IMG/VR virus record: IMGVR_UViG_3300038701_002386
Span: 1 to 36,157 of that record
DNA from: a virus
Length of the DNA: 36,157 nt
Direction: 5' to 3' (one strand)
The translations under genes were made by a program, and so were the position numbers. Under the pieces are notes generated by a model. That model saw only the letters and a program-made list of their open reading frames with translations. It ran no database searches and had not been told where the DNA came from. Positions 4,044 to 36,157 of this stretch are shown piece by piece (the stretch's first letter is position 1; the number at the start of each line of letters is the position of its first letter).

Positions 4044-4814
4044 TTAGTAGATCATTGATTCCCGCTGCATTTTTTGAATCTCAAAGAATTTGTCGCGGTC
4101 TTGGTGGTACTTGGAAACTGGCGAAGCTCTTGAGCTTGATTTCTCAGCGTTGCGAAACCAGGTAGAGAGTCGTCTGCGAACCTCGAAGGTTTTCTGTTGC
4201 TTCCATCTGCACGTCTTCCCAGACTTTGAAGGTTCGGTCCAGTAGTCGATGAACTTCTCTAGTTCTGCCTGTGCTGCTTCTTGAGAATTTCCCTTTTGGA
4301 TAACTCCCATTAGGACGTGGTTGTATATTTCTCCCTTGGCAAAAAATTCTTCTGCAATTTCTGCTGGTGTTGGGTCAGACGAAATTTTTTCGTCTGCTGT
4401 ACCCTTCTTTACATTCTTATAATTCTTTACATTCTTGTTAGGGTCGATACCTGGACCGTCCTTGGACCGTCCTTGGTCAACTTTGCGGTCAACTTGCTGG
4501 TGCTCATCCCAATTTTTGATAGTCACTATGCCACCTTTAGCGGTTCGCTTGAGGTCAATCATGCGGTCAGCTTCAAACCTCTTTATCCAATACAAGACCG
4601 TCGACGGTGAGAGACCTAATTCCTTTGCCATTTCTCTCTTTCCCATTAGGAATTGACCAGGTTTTAGAGAAACTTTTTCTCTTTTTGCGTAAAATTCTCT
4701 TTCCTCATGTGAAGCTCTCAGAAGGCACTCAACCCATATGTGAACAGCTTTTGACTCCCTGTATATTGGTGACTTCTTTAGTTTGCGATGTAGTTTTATC
4801 CAGCCGTTTGACAT
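4044..4814 (-). CDS. Replication initiator (replisome organiser) with winged-helix domain
   Basis: 256 residues. The N terminus MSNGWIKLHRKLKKSPIY and the segment FLMGKREMAKELGLSPSTV, then YWIKRFEADRMIDLK, form a winged-helix DNA-binding domain (about residues 50-115) typical of phage replication initiators of the lambda O / DnaD-like kind. A linker (about 115-150) is rich in Lys, Asp, Gly and Asn; the C-terminal half is helical and could recruit the host helicase loader. No helicase or polymerase gene is present, so host replication enzymes must be captured. The linker-coding DNA holds tandem repeats that look like an origin. It follows ssb by 3 bases. Confidence 0.75.
   Translation of the reverse strand: MSNGWIKLHRKLKKSPIYRESKAVHIWVECLLRASHEEREFYAKREKVSLKPGQFLMGKREMAKELGLSPSTVLYWIKRFEADRMIDLKRTAKGGIVTIKNWDEHQQVDRKVDQGRSKDGPGIDPNKNVKNYKNVKKGTADEKISSDPTPAEIAEEFFAKGEIYNHVLMGVIQKGNSQEAAQAELEKFIDYWTEPSKSGKTCRWKQQKTFEVRRRLSTWFRNAEKSSSRASPVSKYHQDRDKFFEIQKMQRESMIY
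4408..4497. other. Candidate replication origin repeats inside the initiator gene
   Basis: Two exact 11-bp tandem copies of TGGACCGTCCT at 4452-4462 and 4463-4473, then GGTCAACTT twice with a 12-bp period (4475-4483 and 4487-4495). Next to them is an A/T-rich stretch with TTTACATTCTT twice, 18 bp apart (4408-4418 and 4426-4436). Iterons plus an A/T-rich unwinding-like element within the initiator gene is the arrangement of lambda ori in gene O. The function is inferred from layout. Confidence 0.55.
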
Positions 4815-8408: not shown

Positions 8409-9140
8409 ATGCATTTAGGGAGCCTACTAAAAAACCTTAGAAAATCCAAGAGGTGGACACTTAAAAAGCTTTCAGAGGAATACAATTCCTCAAAGAAAGC
8501 AGATATGAGTGATATTCACCTTAGTCTTTTAAGTATGTATGAAAGGGGTAAGTACCAGCTTTCAAAAGAGAGGATGAAGGATATTCTTGTTTTTGGATTC
8601 AACTACACCCCCAAAGAAGCAGACCAAGCTATCTCTGAATACATTGTCTCTCAAGAAGGGAGGAACCTCGGACTAGAGAAGGTTAAAGAAATTCTTAACC
8701 AATCTTCATCAAAACTTCATTTTGAGAAGGTAGAGTGGAGTCATTCTAATCTTATTCCTGTGTTCAATTCTGTAGGTGCTGGCTTCACCAGTGACACAAC
8801 TATCGAGGCAGATGTATATTTCCCTATCCCTTCTGATGTTCGGTACCCGAAAGACAGACTCTTCTACGCTCACGTCGAAGGCGACTCCATGAAGCCCGCT
8901 ATCATGAACGGTGACTATGTACTCATTTTGAAAGACGAGGTCGAAATGATCGAAGGGAAGATCTACGCTTTTTGGGTGGATGGAAGGTACACGATCAAAC
9001 GATTCAAGAAGATCACCGATGAGATATACCAACTCACCCCTAATAACCCAGACAAGGAGTCGGTCACAGTGACGCCCGATATGCAAAAGAATATTTACCC
9101 AGTGGGGAAAGTGATCAGGGTGCAGAGACGGCTTGATTAA
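8409..9140 (+). CDS. Lysogeny repressor with HTH and self-cleaving S24 domain
   Basis: 243 residues. An N-terminal helix-turn-helix (about residues 1-60; LGSLLKNLRKSKRWTLKKLS) is joined to a LexA/CI-type S24 peptidase. The catalytic pair is S160 (VEGDSMKPAI) and K197 (RYTIKRFKK); the cleavage site is probably A124-G125 in SVGAGF. RecA-stimulated self-cleavage under DNA damage would lift repression. It diverges from the Cro-like gene across a region with paired operator-like sites. An unusual insertion (NSSKKADMSD) sits inside the HTH. No Shine-Dalgarno precedes the ATG. Confidence 0.92.
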   Translation: MHLGSLLKNLRKSKRWTLKKLSEEYNSSKKADMSDIHLSLLSMYERGKYQLSKERMKDILVFGFNYTPKEADQAISEYIVSQEGRNLGLEKVKEILNQSSSKLHFEKVEWSHSNLIPVFNSVGAGFTSDTTIEADVYFPIPSDVRYPKDRLFYAHVEGDSMKPAIMNGDYVLILKDEVEMIEGKIYAFWVDGRYTIKRFKKITDEIYQLTPNNPDKESVTVTPDMQKNIYPVGKVIRVQRRLD

Positions 9141-9165
9141 TTTTATATACCGTAAGTGGCTTGAA

Positions 9166-9366
9166 ATGAGCAAAGGTTTAAAATGGCATTACTTCGGAAT
9201 GTTTGGGATCATGGTAGTTTTGTATCTTGTTCTTAGAGTTGCCGAGGTTGGCGTTGCGGATATCTTGAGTGATGAAAGTCTCGTCGACGAGTTCTTAGTG
9301 ATATCACAGCTAATAGTTGTGTTTTATGGATTCGTGTACTTCCTCAGATTCCTCAACAACAATTGA
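9166..9366 (+). CDS. Small membrane protein beside the repressor
   Basis: 66 residues from MSKGLKWHYFGM, with two membrane helices (about 9-27 and 42-61) around an acidic loop (ADILSDESLVDEF). A TTG start 11 codons earlier would overlap the repressor end and is less likely. Small membrane genes next to phage repressors are often expressed in the lysogen and can block superinfection; that role here is only suggested by position. Confidence 0.55.
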   Translation: MSKGLKWHYFGMFGIMVVLYLVLRVAEVGVADILSDESLVDEFLVISQLIVVFYGFVYFLRFLNNN

Positions 9367-9422
9367 TCCATGTACAACGACGGCTTGATTAGCTAGTGTT
9401 ACACCAGGCGTACGCACGTTGT

Positions 9423-9451
9423 TTGACATGTAGTGTTTTTTGAGCTACATT
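9423..9451 (+). promoter_or_regulatory. Strong promoter upstream of the non-coding RNA
   Basis: TTGACA (9423-9428), a 17-bp spacer, TACATT (9446-9451): the best promoter match in the window. No gene of normal size follows for 600 bases; a structured stretch and a terminator do. Transcription should start near 9458. Confidence 0.75.
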
Positions 9452-9456
9452 CTTTT

Positions 9457-9826
9457 TGTCTTCAATATGAAGGCCCCAGAAACTACTTCTCAGACTGAAT
9501 CTTTTACGTATCACTTACAACAAAGACTCTAAACCTGGAGTAGTAGGAGGTGTGAAAACACTCTCTACGAGGCTAGCGCCTCCTCTCTCTGGGTTTGGAG
9601 TTTTTTCAGGAGGTTAGCCAGGCGTCTGTCATTACAGCAGAAGCTCTGGCAGGCGTCTGTACTTATCTTCTGTGTTGACCCAAAGTAGCTATGTTCCAAT
9701 GCTACACTTGCGGAGGATGCATCATCTTTCGCACAAGAAAAAACGGGGTAAAGTACCCCGTTCACGTTGGATCTAGTAATCACTAGATCGTGAGCCCGTC
9801 ATCCCTTGAAAGTTGGCGGGCTTTTT
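9457..9826 (+). ncRNA. Structured non-coding RNA of about 370 nt, class unknown
   Basis: The transcript is bounded by a near-consensus promoter and an intrinsic terminator. Stems visible by eye: GGCTA/CCTCC (9571-9583) with GGAGG/TAGCC (9609-9619); a 9-bp stem 9742-9750/9754-9762; an 8-bp stem GATCTAGT/ACTAGATC (9770-9789); and the terminator. CAGGCGTCTGT occurs twice, 31 bp apart (9619-9629, 9650-9660). A 21-codon frame (9467-9532, starting MKAPETTSQTE) lies near its 5' end without a ribosome site. The minus strand has a 72-codon frame that looks like a shadow. It could belong to the large phage-borne RNA classes; a family cannot be given. Confidence 0.65.
9793..9826 (+). terminator. Intrinsic terminator of the non-coding RNA
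   Basis: AGCCCGTCA (9793-9801) pairs with TGGCGGGCT (9814-9822), 9 bp with one G-U, followed by a T run to 9826. It separates the repressor-side transcripts from the late operon. Confidence 0.8.
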
Positions 9827-9835
9827 CTGATGCAA

Positions 9836-10076
9836 AATCAGACGGAAACAACTGAGTTAGTTGCTTTCGCCAAACTTTGCATAGGATATATATAATAAGT
9901 TATTCATGATGTCAATGTCAAGAGAACATCACGATCAATAAACATAAACTACTGTTTTTGTATTTACATGTAAACTACTCGAAATTGCTAGAGTGCCAAG
10001 GTGTGTACTACTAACATTTTGACTTTTGAAAAAGTTCATGTTTAAGGAAGGGTACTACTCTTTCATATCATGAACC
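9836..10076 (+). promoter_or_regulatory. Late-operon control region
   Basis: 240 gene-free bases before the first late gene. Seen: a perfect 12-bp palindrome TTTACATGTAAA (9963-9974); TAAACTACT twice, 26 bp apart (9945-9953, 9971-9979); TACTACT at 10006-10012 and 10053-10059; and a possible promoter TTGCTA-18-TACTAA (9985-10014). The repeats suggest binding sites for a late activator or repressor. Which element is the promoter is unclear. Confidence 0.4.
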
Positions 10077-10583
10077 ATGATTACCAAGACCACAGCCAAC
10101 AAGGCTCTTTTAGTTCGATCGGTTATCGGAAAGAACGCAAACCGACTCAACAACAAGGATACTCAAAAGTATCTATCTGTTCATCGTGCACTCAATAAAG
10201 CACTTGCTCCTCAAATCGAAAAGATGAAGGAGTTTGAAAAAGAACAGAATGAACTTGTCATAAAGTTCCGAGAACAAGAAGCAGATCTCGTATCAAAGAA
10301 AGCTCAAGCTCAAGGAGAAAAAGAAAAAGAAGCTGTCCAAGCTGAGATTGATTCTCTTCCAGTTGGGTACGGTAAAGCAGTGAAGCCACTCAGTAAGAAA
10401 ATCGACGCTCAATCAGAACTCGACAAGAAAACGGATATCGAAATTACTTTTGATGGAAATGCTTTTGCATGGCTTCGAGAACACGTTGAGAACAACGGAA
10501 TTGATCTCGCAAAGAATCAAGACGGTTCAGTTAACAATGAACTCCTTGAAGACCTCTTTTGTTTTGTAGGACTAAATGAGTAA
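10077..10583 (+). CDS. First late-operon protein, coiled coil, function unknown
   Basis: 168 residues. A long helical, charged central part (about 45-115, EKMKEFEKEQNELVIKFREQ) forms a coiled coil, followed by DIEITFDGNAFAWLREHVEN and an acidic end. It precedes the terminase genes and its TAA overlaps the next ATG (TAATG). Similar helical proteins (for example DUF1617-like) sit at this place in other phages, but I do not assign a family with confidence. Confidence 0.65.
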   Translation: MITKTTANKALLVRSVIGKNANRLNNKDTQKYLSVHRALNKALAPQIEKMKEFEKEQNELVIKFREQEADLVSKKAQAQGEKEKEAVQAEIDSLPVGYGKAVKPLSKKIDAQSELDKKTDIEITFDGNAFAWLREHVENNGIDLAKNQDGSVNNELLEDLFCFVGLNE

Positions 10584-10978
10584 TGAGAACAGGACGCCCT
10601 TTAAAGTTCGCAACACCTGAGATACTTCAGGAAAAAATAGACCAGTACTTTAAGGAAACTCCTCCTATTGAAGTTACTATCTCTGGCCTTGCTCTTTTTC
10701 TTGATACGAGCAGAGAAACGCTTATGAACTACGAAAAGAAGGATGATTTCTTTGACACTGTAAAAAAAGCAAAGCTCCGAGTGCAGGTTGAGTATGAGAA
10801 AGACCTTAGGAAGAAAGCCAGGCCAGGAGATATCTTCGCACTCAAAAACTTTGGATGGTCAGACCGACAAGAGATCACTGGCGCAGATGGTAAAGACCTT
10901 CCTACTCCAATAATCCCGATCAATGTTCATACAAACAACAGCAACAAGGAAGATAACAGCGTTGTCGAAGAGGATTAG
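10583..10978 (+). CDS. Terminase small subunit
   Basis: 131 residues. MRTGRPLKFATPEILQEKID is a common TerS start; the DNA-binding helix-turn-helix follows (ISGLALFLDTSRETLMNYEK, about 33-52). KARPGDIFALKNFGWSDRQE is the usual central signature of the gp3-like TerS group. It would bind the packaging site and hand the DNA to the large subunit, whose gene overlaps its last 56 bases. The C terminus is Asn/Glu-rich. Confidence 0.88.
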   Translation: MRTGRPLKFATPEILQEKIDQYFKETPPIEVTISGLALFLDTSRETLMNYEKKDDFFDTVKKAKLRVQVEYEKDLRKKARPGDIFALKNFGWSDRQEITGADGKDLPTPIIPINVHTNNSNKEDNSVVEED

Positions 10979-12155
10979 AGCTATTCAAGGAGGGACTTCC
11001 GCAAGTAAAACTATCTCTGTGCTCTTGTATTTGATCGCAATGGCTCAATCAGATAAAACCCCGACTCTTACGAGTATCGTCTCTGAGTCATTCCCTCATT
11101 TGAAACGTGGATCAATGAGGGATTTTTTAATGATCATGCAAGAACATGGATACTTCAAGGACAAGAGATGGAATAAGTCTGATTACACTTACACTTTTGA
11201 GACGGGTTCGAAGATAGAGTTCTTTTCAGCAGACCAGCCAAACAAAGTCAGAGGGCCACGGCGACATAGGCTTTTTGTGAATGAGGCTAACAACATACCT
11301 TATGAGGCCTTTGATCAGCTTGAGGTTCGTACAAGAGAGTTTATCTTTCTTGATTGGAACCCCACCAATGAGTTTTGGTTTTATGAAGAGATACAAGGAA
11401 AACGTGATGACGTGGACTTTCTCATACTGACCTACCTAGACAATGAAGGACTCCCAGAAGAGATTGTGAAATCTATTGAGCAAAGAAAAGAAAAGAAAAG
11501 CTGGTGGCGTGTCTATGGTGAAGGTCAACTAGGAGAAGTCGAAGGGAAGATATACAGAGGCTGGAAGATTATTGATGAAATCCCTCATGAGGCCAAACTA
11601 ATTAGACGAGGGCTTGACTTTGGGTACACAAATGACCCGTCTTGCTTAGTGGATATTTACGCTTACGATGGAGGCTACATTATCGACGAGAAGCTTTTTA
11701 GAAAGGGGATGAGCAACAAGCAAATAGCTGACTTGATAAACAACCAAGAAGAGGATGTGCTTGTGATCGCAGATAGTGCTGAACCGAAATCCATTGACGA
11801 AATCAGAAGCTACGGAGTACAGATCATAGGAGCGAAGAAAGGGAAGGACTCTGTATCATTTGGGATTCAGTTTGTTCAAGATCAGCAAATAAGCGTAACT
11901 AAGAGAAGTGTGAATGTGATTAAGGAGTACAGAAACTACCTATGGGAGACAGATAGAGACGGAAAGATTCTCAATACACCAGAGCACCCCTTTTCTCACT
12001 CTATGGACGCTATTAGATACGGCTTTTCCTCTTTGGTGAAACCAGAGAAAAAAAGCAATGTAAGCGACGCCGCAAAGAGCTACTACGGCGAAACAAAGCT
12101 TGATTGGGGTGGTGGAACTTCAAATCAGCTTGCAAATCAAAAAAGTTCACTCTAG
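10923..12155 (+). CDS. Terminase large subunit (packaging motor)
   Basis: 410 residues. The ATPase has a Walker A variant QGGTSASKT (residues 22-30) and Walker B LFVNE (117-121), with Asn before the catalytic Glu. The C-terminal RNase-H-like nuclease shows D232 (RRGLDFGYTND), D284 (LVIADSAEPKS) and SHSMDAIRY near residue 363. This is a Terminase_3 (PBSX/P22-like) large subunit of normal size. It pumps DNA into the procapsid and cuts it. The start overlaps terS; no better start exists downstream before Walker A. Confidence 0.95.
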   Translation: MFIQTTATRKITALSKRIRAIQGGTSASKTISVLLYLIAMAQSDKTPTLTSIVSESFPHLKRGSMRDFLMIMQEHGYFKDKRWNKSDYTYTFETGSKIEFFSADQPNKVRGPRRHRLFVNEANNIPYEAFDQLEVRTREFIFLDWNPTNEFWFYEEIQGKRDDVDFLILTYLDNEGLPEEIVKSIEQRKEKKSWWRVYGEGQLGEVEGKIYRGWKIIDEIPHEAKLIRRGLDFGYTNDPSCLVDIYAYDGGYIIDEKLFRKGMSNKQIADLINNQEEDVLVIADSAEPKSIDEIRSYGVQIIGAKKGKDSVSFGIQFVQDQQISVTKRSVNVIKEYRNYLWETDRDGKILNTPEHPFSHSMDAIRYGFSSLVKPEKKSNVSDAAKSYYGETKLDWGGGTSNQLANQKSSL

Positions 12156-16868: not shown

Positions 16869-17282
16869 ATGAGAAATTTTCCAAAAGAGAACTACGTCAT
16901 ATTTAAAAATCAAGGAGCAGACGGTCAAGGTGTTGCTTTTAAGGTCGAAGAGTTCGAAAAACTTACTTTTGCACTCGATACTTCAAGTTCTGCTGCGATG
17001 ACTATTAAAGCTTTGATTTCTACACAAGAAACAGAGCCTGACTGGTCGGCTTCACAATCAGCAACTAATCAGTATTCATACGCTCGTATCACGTCTCTAG
17101 GGACAGGAACAACAGTAGCAGGAGCTACTGGGATCGTTCTTTCAGGTACAGACGTACACGACACCTACACAGTCGAACTAGGAAGCGGAGCTGTCCGATG
17201 GATCAACTTTGATCTTTCAGGGTACTCAGCTGGTCAAATCGATGAACTCGCCTTATTCCCTGTTAATAACACTCTTCGATGA
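16869..17282 (+). CDS. Small virion protein, function unknown
   Basis: 137 residues, beta-rich ([20 protein letters not shown], then [19 protein letters not shown]). It contains no cysteine or membrane segment. Its TGA overlaps the start of the collagen-like fibre gene as ATGA, so the two are translated together, perhaps as fibre base and fibre. The gene is the first after the terminator. Confidence 0.65.
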
Positions 17283-19129
17283 GCCTAAAAACCATTCGCT
17301 CTAATCGTTTGGAGCTTTCAGATGCATACAATTTCACAGGAACGCTCCAAAAGAATGGTGTGAATGTTGCTACCGTGAACGACTTAGTCACAGGTGCAAC
17401 AGGATACACAGGGTATACAGGCTATACGGGTGCAGCTTCGACTGTCACAGGCCCTACAGGGTACACAGGCCCAACTGGTGCTCAAGGAAATATAGGAGCA
17501 ACAGGATACACTGGCCCAGATGGAGCCACTGGTCCAACGGGGTATACAGGATACACGGGAGCTGATGGTAGTGACGGCGCAACGGGATATACAGGATATA
17601 CAGGCCCTGCTGGTTCGGCGTCTGCTACAGGTGCAACAGGATATACAGGATATACAGGATATACAGGGCCAGCGTCTTTTGTGCCAGGGCCTACGGGGTA
17701 TACAGGGTACACTGGCCCAGCAGGTACAGGAAGTACGGGGTATACAGGGTACACTGGTTATACAGGTGTCCCTGGATCGGCCACTGCAACAGGTGCTACT
17801 GGGTATACGGGTTATACTGGGTACACAGGAGATACAGGCGCACAAGGCCCCACAGGTTATACAGGGTACACAGGATACACTGGTGCTCAGGGAGACATTG
17901 GGCCTACAGGATACACTGGGTATACAGGAGCGGCCTCAACTATCACAGGACCAACTGGGTATACAGGATATACTGGTGCAGCTGGTGCAGACTCAACCGT
18001 CACAGGACCTACAGGATACACGGGGTACACGGGGCCAATAGGTGCTACAGGATATACTGGGTACACAGGTGATGCTGGAAGTGCGGGTGCTCAAGGAGCG
18101 ACTGGTCCAACTGGTCCAACTGGATACACAGGGTACACGGGACCTCAGGGGGCAGCCTCTACAGTTACGGGCCCTACAGGGTATACGGGTTACACTGGAC
18201 CTCAAGGAAATCAGGGGAATATCGGCCCAACTGGGTACACTGGTTACACTGGTGACCAGGGTGCGGCATCGACAGTAACAGGCCCGACTGGGTACACGGG
18301 TTACACAGGTGCGGCTGGAAGTGCAGGAACTCAAGGCCCGACTGGGTACACGGGGTATACTGGTGCTGCTGGTGCAGATTCTACAGTAACAGGGCCAACA
18401 GGATACACAGGGTACACGGGTTACACAGGTGCGGCTGGAAGTGCAGGAGCTCAGGGCCCGACTGGGTATACAGGGTATACAGGGTATACAGGTGCTTCTG
18501 CTTCTGGGGGTGGCCCGATAATGAATGTGTCTACTTTCTTTGAGTCTGACTCGACTCGGTTTTTTACTTTTACCGCTAGCTCAGCGACAGTATCCTTTCA
18601 AAACAATGGTGTTGAGTTGAGGGCGTCTTCTACGTCTGGCTCATACTGCAAGATAGACTTATTAACAACCAATTCGATTGGTTCTTTGTTCGATGACTCG
18701 TCGTCTTTTTGTAGTAATTTTGGAGCAATCGCTGTTGCGAATAGTAATAGCGAATTTTCTACTTGGGTAGGAGCATTGTCTTTAACTGGTGCAAGCATTA
18801 CAAAGACAGGGAAGCATTACGGGTGGATCATTGACAGGACGTCAGGAACTGCTGATTTTCAGGCTTCAAATGCGAACGGAACGACTGAAACAAACACCTC
18901 TATCACTGCGTCTGCGAACATTAATGACTTCGTCACCGCTATTAAAGACGGAAATACTAATATAAAGTACTACACAGGAAACACGCTTGATGCTACTCAT
19001 ACCACAAATCTCCCCTCTGGGACGGGCTCTACCACGTTATTGAGTGCTGGTATTTGCAATAAAAACAATGCGGACGATGGGGACATTACAATGTCATATT
19101 GGGGATTCAGTTATGATCCTACTTCTTAA
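17279..19129 (+). CDS. Collagen-like fibre protein
   Basis: 616 residues. A short head (1-38) leads into about 365 residues of Gly-X-Y repeats (39-405), mostly GYT, GPT and GAQ/GAA triplets. Threonine takes most Y positions. Interruptions ([12 protein letters not shown]) repeat at regular intervals. The C-terminal 200 residues form a beta-rich domain with two cysteines, likely to trimerise the fibre or bind a receptor. Bacterial and phage collagens form triple helices without hydroxyproline; Thr in Y position is a known glycosylation-type position. A glycosyltransferase gene lies two genes on. Confidence 0.9.
17393..18492 (+). repeat. Low-complexity tandem repeat DNA encoding Gly-X-Thr
   Basis: Repeated GGATATACAGG-like units in steps of 9 bp, with synonymous variation, run over about 1.1 kb. 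Such DNA can gain or lose units by slippage or recombination, so fibre length may vary between relatives. Assembly errors are also likelier here. Confidence 0.8.
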
Positions 19130-32172: not shown

Positions 32173-32495
32173 TGGAAGGAATAGAAAAAGACACATTCAA
32201 GCAAAGAAACAACCACGTAGACAGCGAGCTCGTGTACCTTAAGAAAGGACTCGATGAGAACAGCCGTATCACTAGAGAACTACATGACCAAGTTTTTCAA
32301 CTTCACGGGAAAATATCTGCACTTCCCCTGAAAGTGAAGGACTCTGTAATGGGTGCTATAGATCACAAGTTTGTCACGAAAGACCGCTTCTCTCCTATAG
32401 AAAAGATCGCTTATGGGACAATTACTTTTATCCTATTAGGTGTTTTTTCTACTCTTGGAGCCGCAGTAGTATTTTTTCTCAGATATTCAACTTAG
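32172..32495 (+). CDS. Second lysis-cassette protein with C-terminal membrane segment
   Basis: 107 residues. The N-terminal part is charged and coiled (VDSELVYLKKGLDENSRITR), and one membrane helix near the end (TITFILLGVFSTLGAAVVFF) anchors it. The layout recalls XhlA-type proteins, which assist holins. Its stop codon overlaps the first bases of the tRNA-like element. Role: holin partner, moderate confidence. Confidence 0.65.
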   Translation: MEGIEKDTFKQRNNHVDSELVYLKKGLDENSRITRELHDQVFQLHGKISALPLKVKDSVMGAIDHKFVTKDRFSPIEKIAYGTITFILLGVFSTLGAAVVFFLRYST

Positions 32496-32562
32496 CATGG
32501 TGTTGTGGAGCACGCTTCGGGTTGCACCGAAAGAGGAGCTAGTTCGACTCTAGCTGTTAAGA
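32491..32562 (+). tRNA. tRNA-like element with irregular anticodon loop
   Basis: Acceptor CTTAGCA pairs with TGTTAAG (32555-32561, one G-U). D arm: GTG/CAC around TTGTGGAG. T arm: GCTAG-TTCGACT-CTAGC, a textbook TTCRANY loop. The anticodon arm is odd: TTCGG/CCGAA leaves a 6-base loop GTTGCA, or TTCG/CGAA leaves 8 bases; a regular 7-base loop cannot be drawn. If TGC is the anticodon it would be alanine. ACCA follows one base late for an encoded CCA. Either a degenerate tRNA or a tRNA-like structure. Confidence 0.55.
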
Positions 32563-32580
32563 ACCAGGCTTTCTCTGGGA

Positions 32581-32731
32581 AAGCTACAGCCTACCATCTC
32601 TTCTGGGGTGGTGGGCTAGACTTTGTGATATAATAAAGCTGTAGCTTCTCACCTCCCTGTTGAAGTAATGGTGGCTGTAGGGAAACCGTTGACCAGCATA
32701 ACGCTTTTACTTTTAAAAGCAGGGAGATGAG
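32581..32731 (+). ncRNA. Candidate structured RNA downstream of the tRNA-like element
   Basis: AAGCTACAG (32581-32589) pairs exactly with CTGTAGCTT (32639-32647) and encloses CCTACCA/TGGTGGG. CTCACCTCCCTG (32648-32659) pairs with CAGGGAGATGAG (32720-32731) with one mismatch. CTACAGCC can also pair with a later GGCTGTAG, an alternative fold. No reading frame uses the region. It lies where the two operons converge and might also serve as terminator, but lacks T runs. Confidence 0.45.
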
Positions 32732-32738
32732 AGATTAC

Positions 32739-32984
32739 TTACATATCTGGCCGTTGTCCTTTTGGTGGTTCCCATCCTGCTTCTGTACCATATGCCCCCA
32801 TCATGAGCTCAACAGCCATTTTACAAAACTCATCACGTGAGAGGTCTTCTCCAATGTCATAGTTATAGACGTCATGATCACCATCTTGATAACCCAATAA
32901 AACAACATACTTTTTATTTCCGACTGTAGTCGCTACTGCTTCACCGAGTTTCTCTACGGCTTCTAGTATTCTTTTTCTGCTCAT
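32739..32984 (-). CDS. Small protein in the integrase operon, function unknown
   Basis: 81 residues (MSRKRILEAVEKLGEAVATT ... GWEPPKGQRPDM). It is acidic with an amphipathic front and a mixed fold. It is the last gene of the integrase operon; its ATG overlaps the TGA of the upstream gene (ATGA). No family recognised. Confidence 0.6.
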   Translation of the reverse strand: MSRKRILEAVEKLGEAVATTVGNKKYVVLLGYQDGDHDVYNYDIGEDLSRDEFCKMAVELMMGAYGTEAGWEPPKGQRPDM

Positions 32985-35977: not shown

Positions 35978-36099
35978 GAAAATATTCCGTGTAGAATAAT
36001 TGCAGCTGCTATCATCCCGAAGCCTAAAAATATAGCCTCTGGTACTGTGAGTGAGGCAGCTAACTCTCCTATTGATTTTGCAATTTCTTGGTCGCTCAT
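35974..36099 (-). CDS. 41-residue small membrane protein
   Basis: MSDQEIAKSIGELAASLTVP followed by a hydrophobic helix (EAIFLGFGMIAAAIILHGIF) and a final Ser. One membrane span near the C terminus. The leader TTTACTTTAGAGAG directly before ATG is of the repeated type. It is the last gene of the leftward early operon across the join. Function unknown; the same gene is cut at the left edge. Confidence 0.65.
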   Translation of the reverse strand: MSDQEIAKSIGELAASLTVPEAIFLGFGMIAAAIILHGIFS

Positions 36100-36154
36100 C
36101 TCTCTAAAGTAAAAAAATAAATATTGAATCAAGGATCAAAGTCATGCTCTATCA
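36032..36154. repeat. Right copy of the 123-bp terminal direct repeat
   Basis: Identical to 3-125. The last three bases of the window (CTC) and the two bases before the repeat differ from the left copy, as expected for frayed contig ends. Confidence 0.85.
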
Positions 36155-36157
36155 CTC

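Follow-up and report, generated by a model that had tools for sequence, protein, structure and literature searches.

What is encoded in the long gap that separates the lysogeny genes of this virus from its packaging genes? The source, a virus record (IMG/VR IMGVR_UViG_3300038701_002386, positions 1 to 36,157), is 36,157 bases long, and by the window we mean this whole stretch of DNA at its full length. The ends of the record repeat each other directly (1-128 versus 36030-36157, with 123/128 bases identical and the differences at the outer edges), which suggests a near-complete genome. The leftward early genes code for an SSB, a YqaJ exonuclease and a NinG-like endonuclease, and a serine integrase is encoded at the far end of the window. 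The lysogeny module comprises an S24-type repressor and a small protein (Table 1), and 710 bp separate the end of the latter (9366) from the start of the packaging operon (10077). The RNA region that the original prediction placed between the lysogeny repressor and the late operon does lie in this gap (9366-10077). A Shine-Dalgarno site is absent before the start codon in most genes of the window, suggesting a host from a group in which such sites are dispensable. Among the structural genes is one for a collagen-like protein with long repeats (17279-19129).

Judging from the folds and signals described below, the gap very probably yields a folded RNA of ~370 bases and a shorter folded RNA from the opposite strand that overlaps its end. 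The plus-strand stretch 9458-9830 has a minimum free energy of -154.1 kcal/mol, against a mean of -102.2 (sd 5.2) for 100 dinucleotide shuffles (z -9.9), and 0/100 of these were as good as the native sequence. When the window was scanned in 360 windows of 250 nt, the top fold outliers were those starting at 9501 and 9601. Stability above the expectation from composition, by which structured RNAs are recognized, was found for the plus RNA both over its whole length and in the best 250-nt window (z -11.3). The features originally predicted for this RNA are all present: several long stems, namely hairpins 1 (~30 bp) and 2 (23 bp), with mean pair probabilities of 0.92-0.99 for the main helices; perfect hairpins near the 3' end (9742-9762, 9 bp; 9770-9789, 8 bp); an intrinsic terminator (stem 9792-9823, plus strand, with TTTTTC next); and a near-consensus promoter, TTGACA-17-TACATT (9423-9451, plus strand). 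The absence of a gene of normal size likewise holds, no plus-strand open reading frame exceeding 34 codons within 9458-9828. The prediction had further noted two sequence copies 31 bp apart. Both copies of CAGGCGTCTGT are present (9619-9629 and 9650-9660), but they lie inside the arms of hairpin 2; because CAGGCGTCTGT is nearly self-complementary via two G-U pairs, the copies pair together as one stem and represent the two arms of the hairpin, not separate repeats. We also considered CAGGCGTCTG as a protein-binding repeat and dropped it, as its copies pair with one another.

The one frame of the stretch that exceeds 34 codons is a minus-strand GTG frame of 72 codons (9783-9565), which crosses the hairpins and which we attribute to chance, and hydropathy analysis of all frames of at least 10 codons found no toxin-like frame with a membrane segment. 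A structured RNA on the plus strand thus has good support, from its fold energy and strand preference as well as from the predicted promoter and terminator.

Table 1. Genes, predicted signals and structural elements in and around the gap
Feature	Position	Strand	Remarks
S24-type repressor	8409-9140	rightward	lysogeny module
Small protein	9133-9366	rightward	lysogeny module, next to S24-type repressor
P1, promoter-like TTGACA-17-TACATT	9423-9451	+	for plus RNA; sigma-70 consensus match
Plus RNA, ~370 nt, predicted	9458-9828	+	start placed by spacing from P1, end by terminator
5' stem-loop, 7 bp, 3-nt loop	9458-9474	+	mean pair probability 0.95
ATG frame, 21 codons, MKAPETTSQTESFTYHLQQRL, putative	9467-9532	+	overlaps start of hairpin 1
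Hairpin 1, ~30 bp, 6 G-U pairs, U-run at 3' edge	9522-9605	+	predicted fold
Hairpin 2, 23 bp plus short apical stem, 5 G-U pairs	9607-9672	+	predicted fold
Stem-loop, 5 bp, GTAGC/GCTAC	9685-9705	+	predicted fold
ATG frame, 31 codons, MFQCYTCGGCIIFRTRKNGVKYPVHVGSSNH, putative	starts 9691	+	begins in a loop
Hairpin, 11 bp, 2 G-U pairs	9709-9733	+	predicted fold
Perfect hairpin, 9 bp	9742-9762	both strands equal	TTTTTTC after it on minus strand
Minus-RNA terminator, GAACGGGGTACTTTACCCCGTTT then TTTC	9763-9741	-	terminator criterion, over palindrome 9742-9762
Perfect hairpin, 8 bp, GATCTAGT-AATC-ACTAGATC	9770-9789	both strands equal	T-run on neither side
Plus-RNA terminator, AGCCCG...CGGGCT then TTTTTC	9792-9828 (stem 9792-9823)	+	fold and terminator criterion
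5' hairpin of minus RNA, 22 bp, 4 G-U pairs (minus strand)	9830-9882	-	predicted fold
P3, promoter-like TCGCCA-18-TATAAT, 10/12	9867-9896	+	candidate late promoter, past plus terminator
Minus RNA, ~150 nt, predicted	9885 to 9736	-	ends predicted; fold z -7.5
P2, promoter-like TTGACA-18-TATTAT, 11/12	9921-9892	-	for minus RNA; best match in window
Packaging and head genes	10077 onward	rightward	first product a 168-aa protein

The two strands of the gap differ in how well they fold. A DNA palindrome folds about equally on either strand; a hairpin kept as RNA may contain G-U pairs, whose counterparts on the opposite strand are A-C mismatches. The plus fold contains 16 G-U pairs and 0 A-C 1x1 mismatches. 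Hairpin 1 reaches -44.7 kcal/mol on the plus strand versus -29.7 on the minus, hairpin 2 -31.2 versus -17.4, and the hairpin at 9709-9733 -13.1 versus -5.6. Only one of the 250-nt windows has a more negative strand difference than that starting at 9501 (-34.5 kcal/mol). Past the plus terminator, the preference of the hairpin at 9830-9882 is reversed (-23.3 kcal/mol on the minus strand versus -13.9 on the plus), and the palindromes 9742-9762 and 9770-9789, in the overlap of the predicted transcripts, are perfect and strand-neutral. The preferred strand of the hairpins switches where the promoter and terminator positions place the switch of transcript, which is support and not proof, because minimum-energy folding favors G-U over A-C by construction.

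Sites of the form TTGACA-N16-18-TANNNT are not rare in the window as a whole, with 2 seen against 1.3 expected. Both fall inside the 710-bp gap and face each other (shuffle P 0.0015), promoter-like sites that score 10/12 or better number three in the gap (P 0.002 in gap shuffles), and a terminator on both strands together occurred in 1/60 shuffles of the gap, all these values being optimistic because the tests on promoters and terminators were picked post hoc, after the sequence had been seen. By the criterion applied, intrinsic terminators in the gap number exactly one per strand, 9792-9828 (plus) and 9763-9741 (minus). The promoters were scored on the sigma-70 consensus, which may not be that of the host (most genes lack a Shine-Dalgarno site); the Bacteroidota-type promoter TTTG-N-TANNTTTG was also looked for and gave no site.

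Given a promoter at 9921-9892 and a terminator at 9763-9741 on the minus strand, part of the 3' hairpin set would also be a property of a minus RNA. The predicted plus and minus transcripts share ~93 nt at their 3' ends, over which they are perfectly complementary. The description of the locus as a stand-alone RNA gene therefore needs amending: the plus RNA has a promoter, a terminator and a fold of its own, but a predicted convergent minus RNA (~9885-9736) overlaps its 3' end. On the strength of its signals the locus is two-sided, a real and strongly structured element, and not one lone RNA. Downstream of P3 but ahead of the first packaging gene lie a direct repeat, TAAACTACT, at 9945 and 9971 (span 9945-9979), and a perfect palindrome, TTTACATGTAAA (9963-9974), flanked by the repeat copies; the stretch 9945-9979 is a possible regulator site.

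We give an even chance to the reading that the gap encodes two convergent structured noncoding RNAs, the minus RNA being antisense to the 3' end of the plus RNA and exerting antisense control. Transcription, pairing in the cell and the regulatory logic, which we infer from the directly established fold, strand preference and signal positions, would then run as follows. P1 would drive the ~370-nt plus RNA, ending at the terminator 9792-9828, and P2 the ~150-nt minus RNA, ending at the terminator 9763-9741. Over the ~93 shared nt the minus RNA would pair with the plus RNA's 3' portion; RNase III would act on the resulting duplex and perhaps also on the long hairpins 1 and 2, and the minus RNA would thereby set the level of the plus RNA. 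The -10 elements of P2 and P3 overlap, so that the two promoters would hardly be usable at once. Minus-RNA synthesis and late transcription from P3 would be mutually exclusive, and the plus RNA would be freed once late transcription begins. As for targets, a search for complementarity between the plus RNA and phage gene starts found no accessible seed of >8 nt. That the locus represents a new class of phage RNA, a large structured noncoding RNA with a convergent antisense partner that is released on late entry because the partner's promoter and the late promoter have a -10 region in common, is an unlikely proposition. If both RNAs are real, a temperate phage with few known relatives would carry, between its lysogeny repressor and its packaging genes, a sense-antisense pair made of RNA only and lying outside every Rfam family, which would be a candidate switch element that needs no protein product. 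At present this is one orphan sequence with strong signals.

All the fold and signal evidence comes from that single sequence, and the search for relatives gave little to compare it with. DNA searches of phage and plasmid records found none, and none of the viral contigs searched showed the double CAGGCGTCTGT pattern. A terminase search recovered 79 loci, 41-78% identical, that have little in common with this phage beyond terL, and blastn found the RNA in none of the 79. The large terminase itself (10923-12155) is up to 78% identical to those of many environmental phages that share almost nothing else with this genome, and this indicates strong mosaicism. Searching 38 whole records with the DNA of the RNA returned the window itself and chance matches of 13-19 bases, and single-sequence covariance models found no RNA relative in 31 records besides the window. 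No relatives emerged via the integrase, the 168-aa protein encoded at 10077 or the small one encoded at 9133, the repressor led to two distant loci at 29% identity, and the major capsid protein led to one nearest phage at 61% and two more at 40%. In that nearest phage (L084), the gap before the small terminase gene measures 227 bp and is without a strong fold. Records very near the window may be missing from the searched set, and both an orphan origin of the RNA and membership of an unsampled clade are possible.

Structured stretches also occur elsewhere in this genome and among the terminase relatives. After the last late gene, a second plus-strand stretch at 32485-32735 has a z of -4.8 (-6.2 for 32480-32740) and no Rfam match. 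It contains a tRNA-like gene (32491-32562) for which ARAGORN gives a two-base anticodon and no amino acid; an encoded ACCA comes next, and then a further large stem. One terminase relative, L016, has a row of terminator-like hairpins between two genes (4343-4647, z -6.7), and L056 carries the same hairpin stretch by position and energy. In another, L017, the stretch 44-303 has a match to abiF RNA together with one tRNA gene for Pro and one for Gln.

The main rival to the convergent pair is a late-operon leader resembling lambda pR'-6S-tR', in which P1 would be the late promoter and the structured stretch an untranslated leader containing terminators; a Q-like phage factor, or the RNA itself as in HK022 put, would let polymerase pass these and reach the packaging genes. 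The stretch directly precedes the packaging genes and shares their strand, P1 and then the terminator 9792-9828 come before the operon, and a U-run ends hairpin 1. We nevertheless regard this reading as somewhat unlikely: it leaves the minus promoter, the minus terminator and the minus-preferring hairpin unexplained, and a further promoter-like site, P3, lies past the terminator. None of the 20 early-region ORFs has a Pfam or PHROG match to an antiterminator, which is a weak argument because such proteins diverge strongly. Simple insulation, with the hairpins forming a two-way terminator block that separates repressor-side from late transcription and having no other role, would need the same single terminator per strand, set for convergent transcripts, and the hairpin row of L016 offers a parallel in a related phage. 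It appears distinctly unlikely, given that hairpins 1, 2 and 9830-9882 far exceed what a terminator needs and are strand-specific, and that each strand has a near-consensus promoter of its own.

The convergent layout, the sizes and the 3' overlap also agree with txpA/RatA and its relatives, and a mark of type I toxin-antitoxin modules, an antisense RNA that converges on or overlaps its partner and has a promoter and a terminator to itself, is predicted here from the sequence signals. The plus RNA would then be the mRNA of a short-peptide toxin, perhaps the 31-codon ATG frame MFQCYTCGGCIIFRTRKNGVKYPVHVGSSNH that starts in a loop, and the minus RNA its antitoxin. Frames of ~30 codons are, though, expected by chance in 370 nt, and no frame fits a small hydrophobic toxin with a membrane-spanning segment, making this very unlikely. 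Highly improbable is a purely DNA-level element, such as a packaging site, an origin or a repeat remnant, whose palindromes merely resemble RNA stems. The stretch lies just before the small terminase gene, where cos/pac sites are frequent, and two of the palindromes are perfect; against a DNA role, the positions that depart from Watson-Crick pairing are G-U pairs on one strand, the favored strand flips at 9830, and no copies are found in phage or plasmid records.

How does a convergent pair of structured RNAs compare with known systems? Lambda pR'-6S-tR' consists of a promoter, a short untranslated transcript and a terminator, followed by the late genes (on its Q system, PMC6606751), and its 6S RNA is about half as long as the plus RNA. 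Our locus shares the order of promoter, untranslated transcript and terminator right upstream of the late genes, but its plus RNA is much more structured, a predicted minus RNA converges on it, and P3, a distinct promoter-like site, lies farther downstream. Lambda OOP and P22 sar are short antisense RNAs near the immunity region, with their own promoter and terminator, that target mRNAs of regulatory proteins. The minus RNA resembles them in size, signals and location, whereas the transcript opposite it has no evident coding function.

ROOL and GOLLD RNAs have a complex fold supported by covariation, with pseudoknots, and form an oligomeric cage. Covariance-model searches against Rfam (cmscan, at gathering scores, and up to E 10 for 9100-10080) gave no credible match, so that the suggested kinship with GOLLD or ROOL is unsupported even at that threshold. 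tRNA genes are usually found near ROOL and GOLLD, and many GOLLD RNAs are >800 nt (PMC12286853). The plus RNA is, like them, a phage-encoded structured noncoding RNA; it is shorter, consists mostly of local hairpins in a row and has no adjacent tRNA, the sole tRNA-like call being that at 32491-32562.

Convergent type I pairs, txpA/RatA and relatives, are common in prophages (PMC6563280, PMC8464778). Their toxins are encoded by short ORFs of about 28-60 aa, hydrophobic and containing a membrane segment (PMC6563280). RatA (222 nt) and txpA overlap by ~120 nt at their 3' ends, SR5 (163 nt) and bsrE by 114 nt, and the duplex of known convergent pairs is a target cut by RNase III (PMC8464778). Without claiming membership of any named family, we note that the locus looks as if it acts as a sense-antisense pair: it resembles the Bacillus subtilis prophage pairs in layout, not in sequence, and although both of its RNAs seem noncoding, it shares with them a prophage setting, convergent transcripts (predicted ones here), the shorter one of 150-220 nt, and a 3' overlap of ~90-120 nt.
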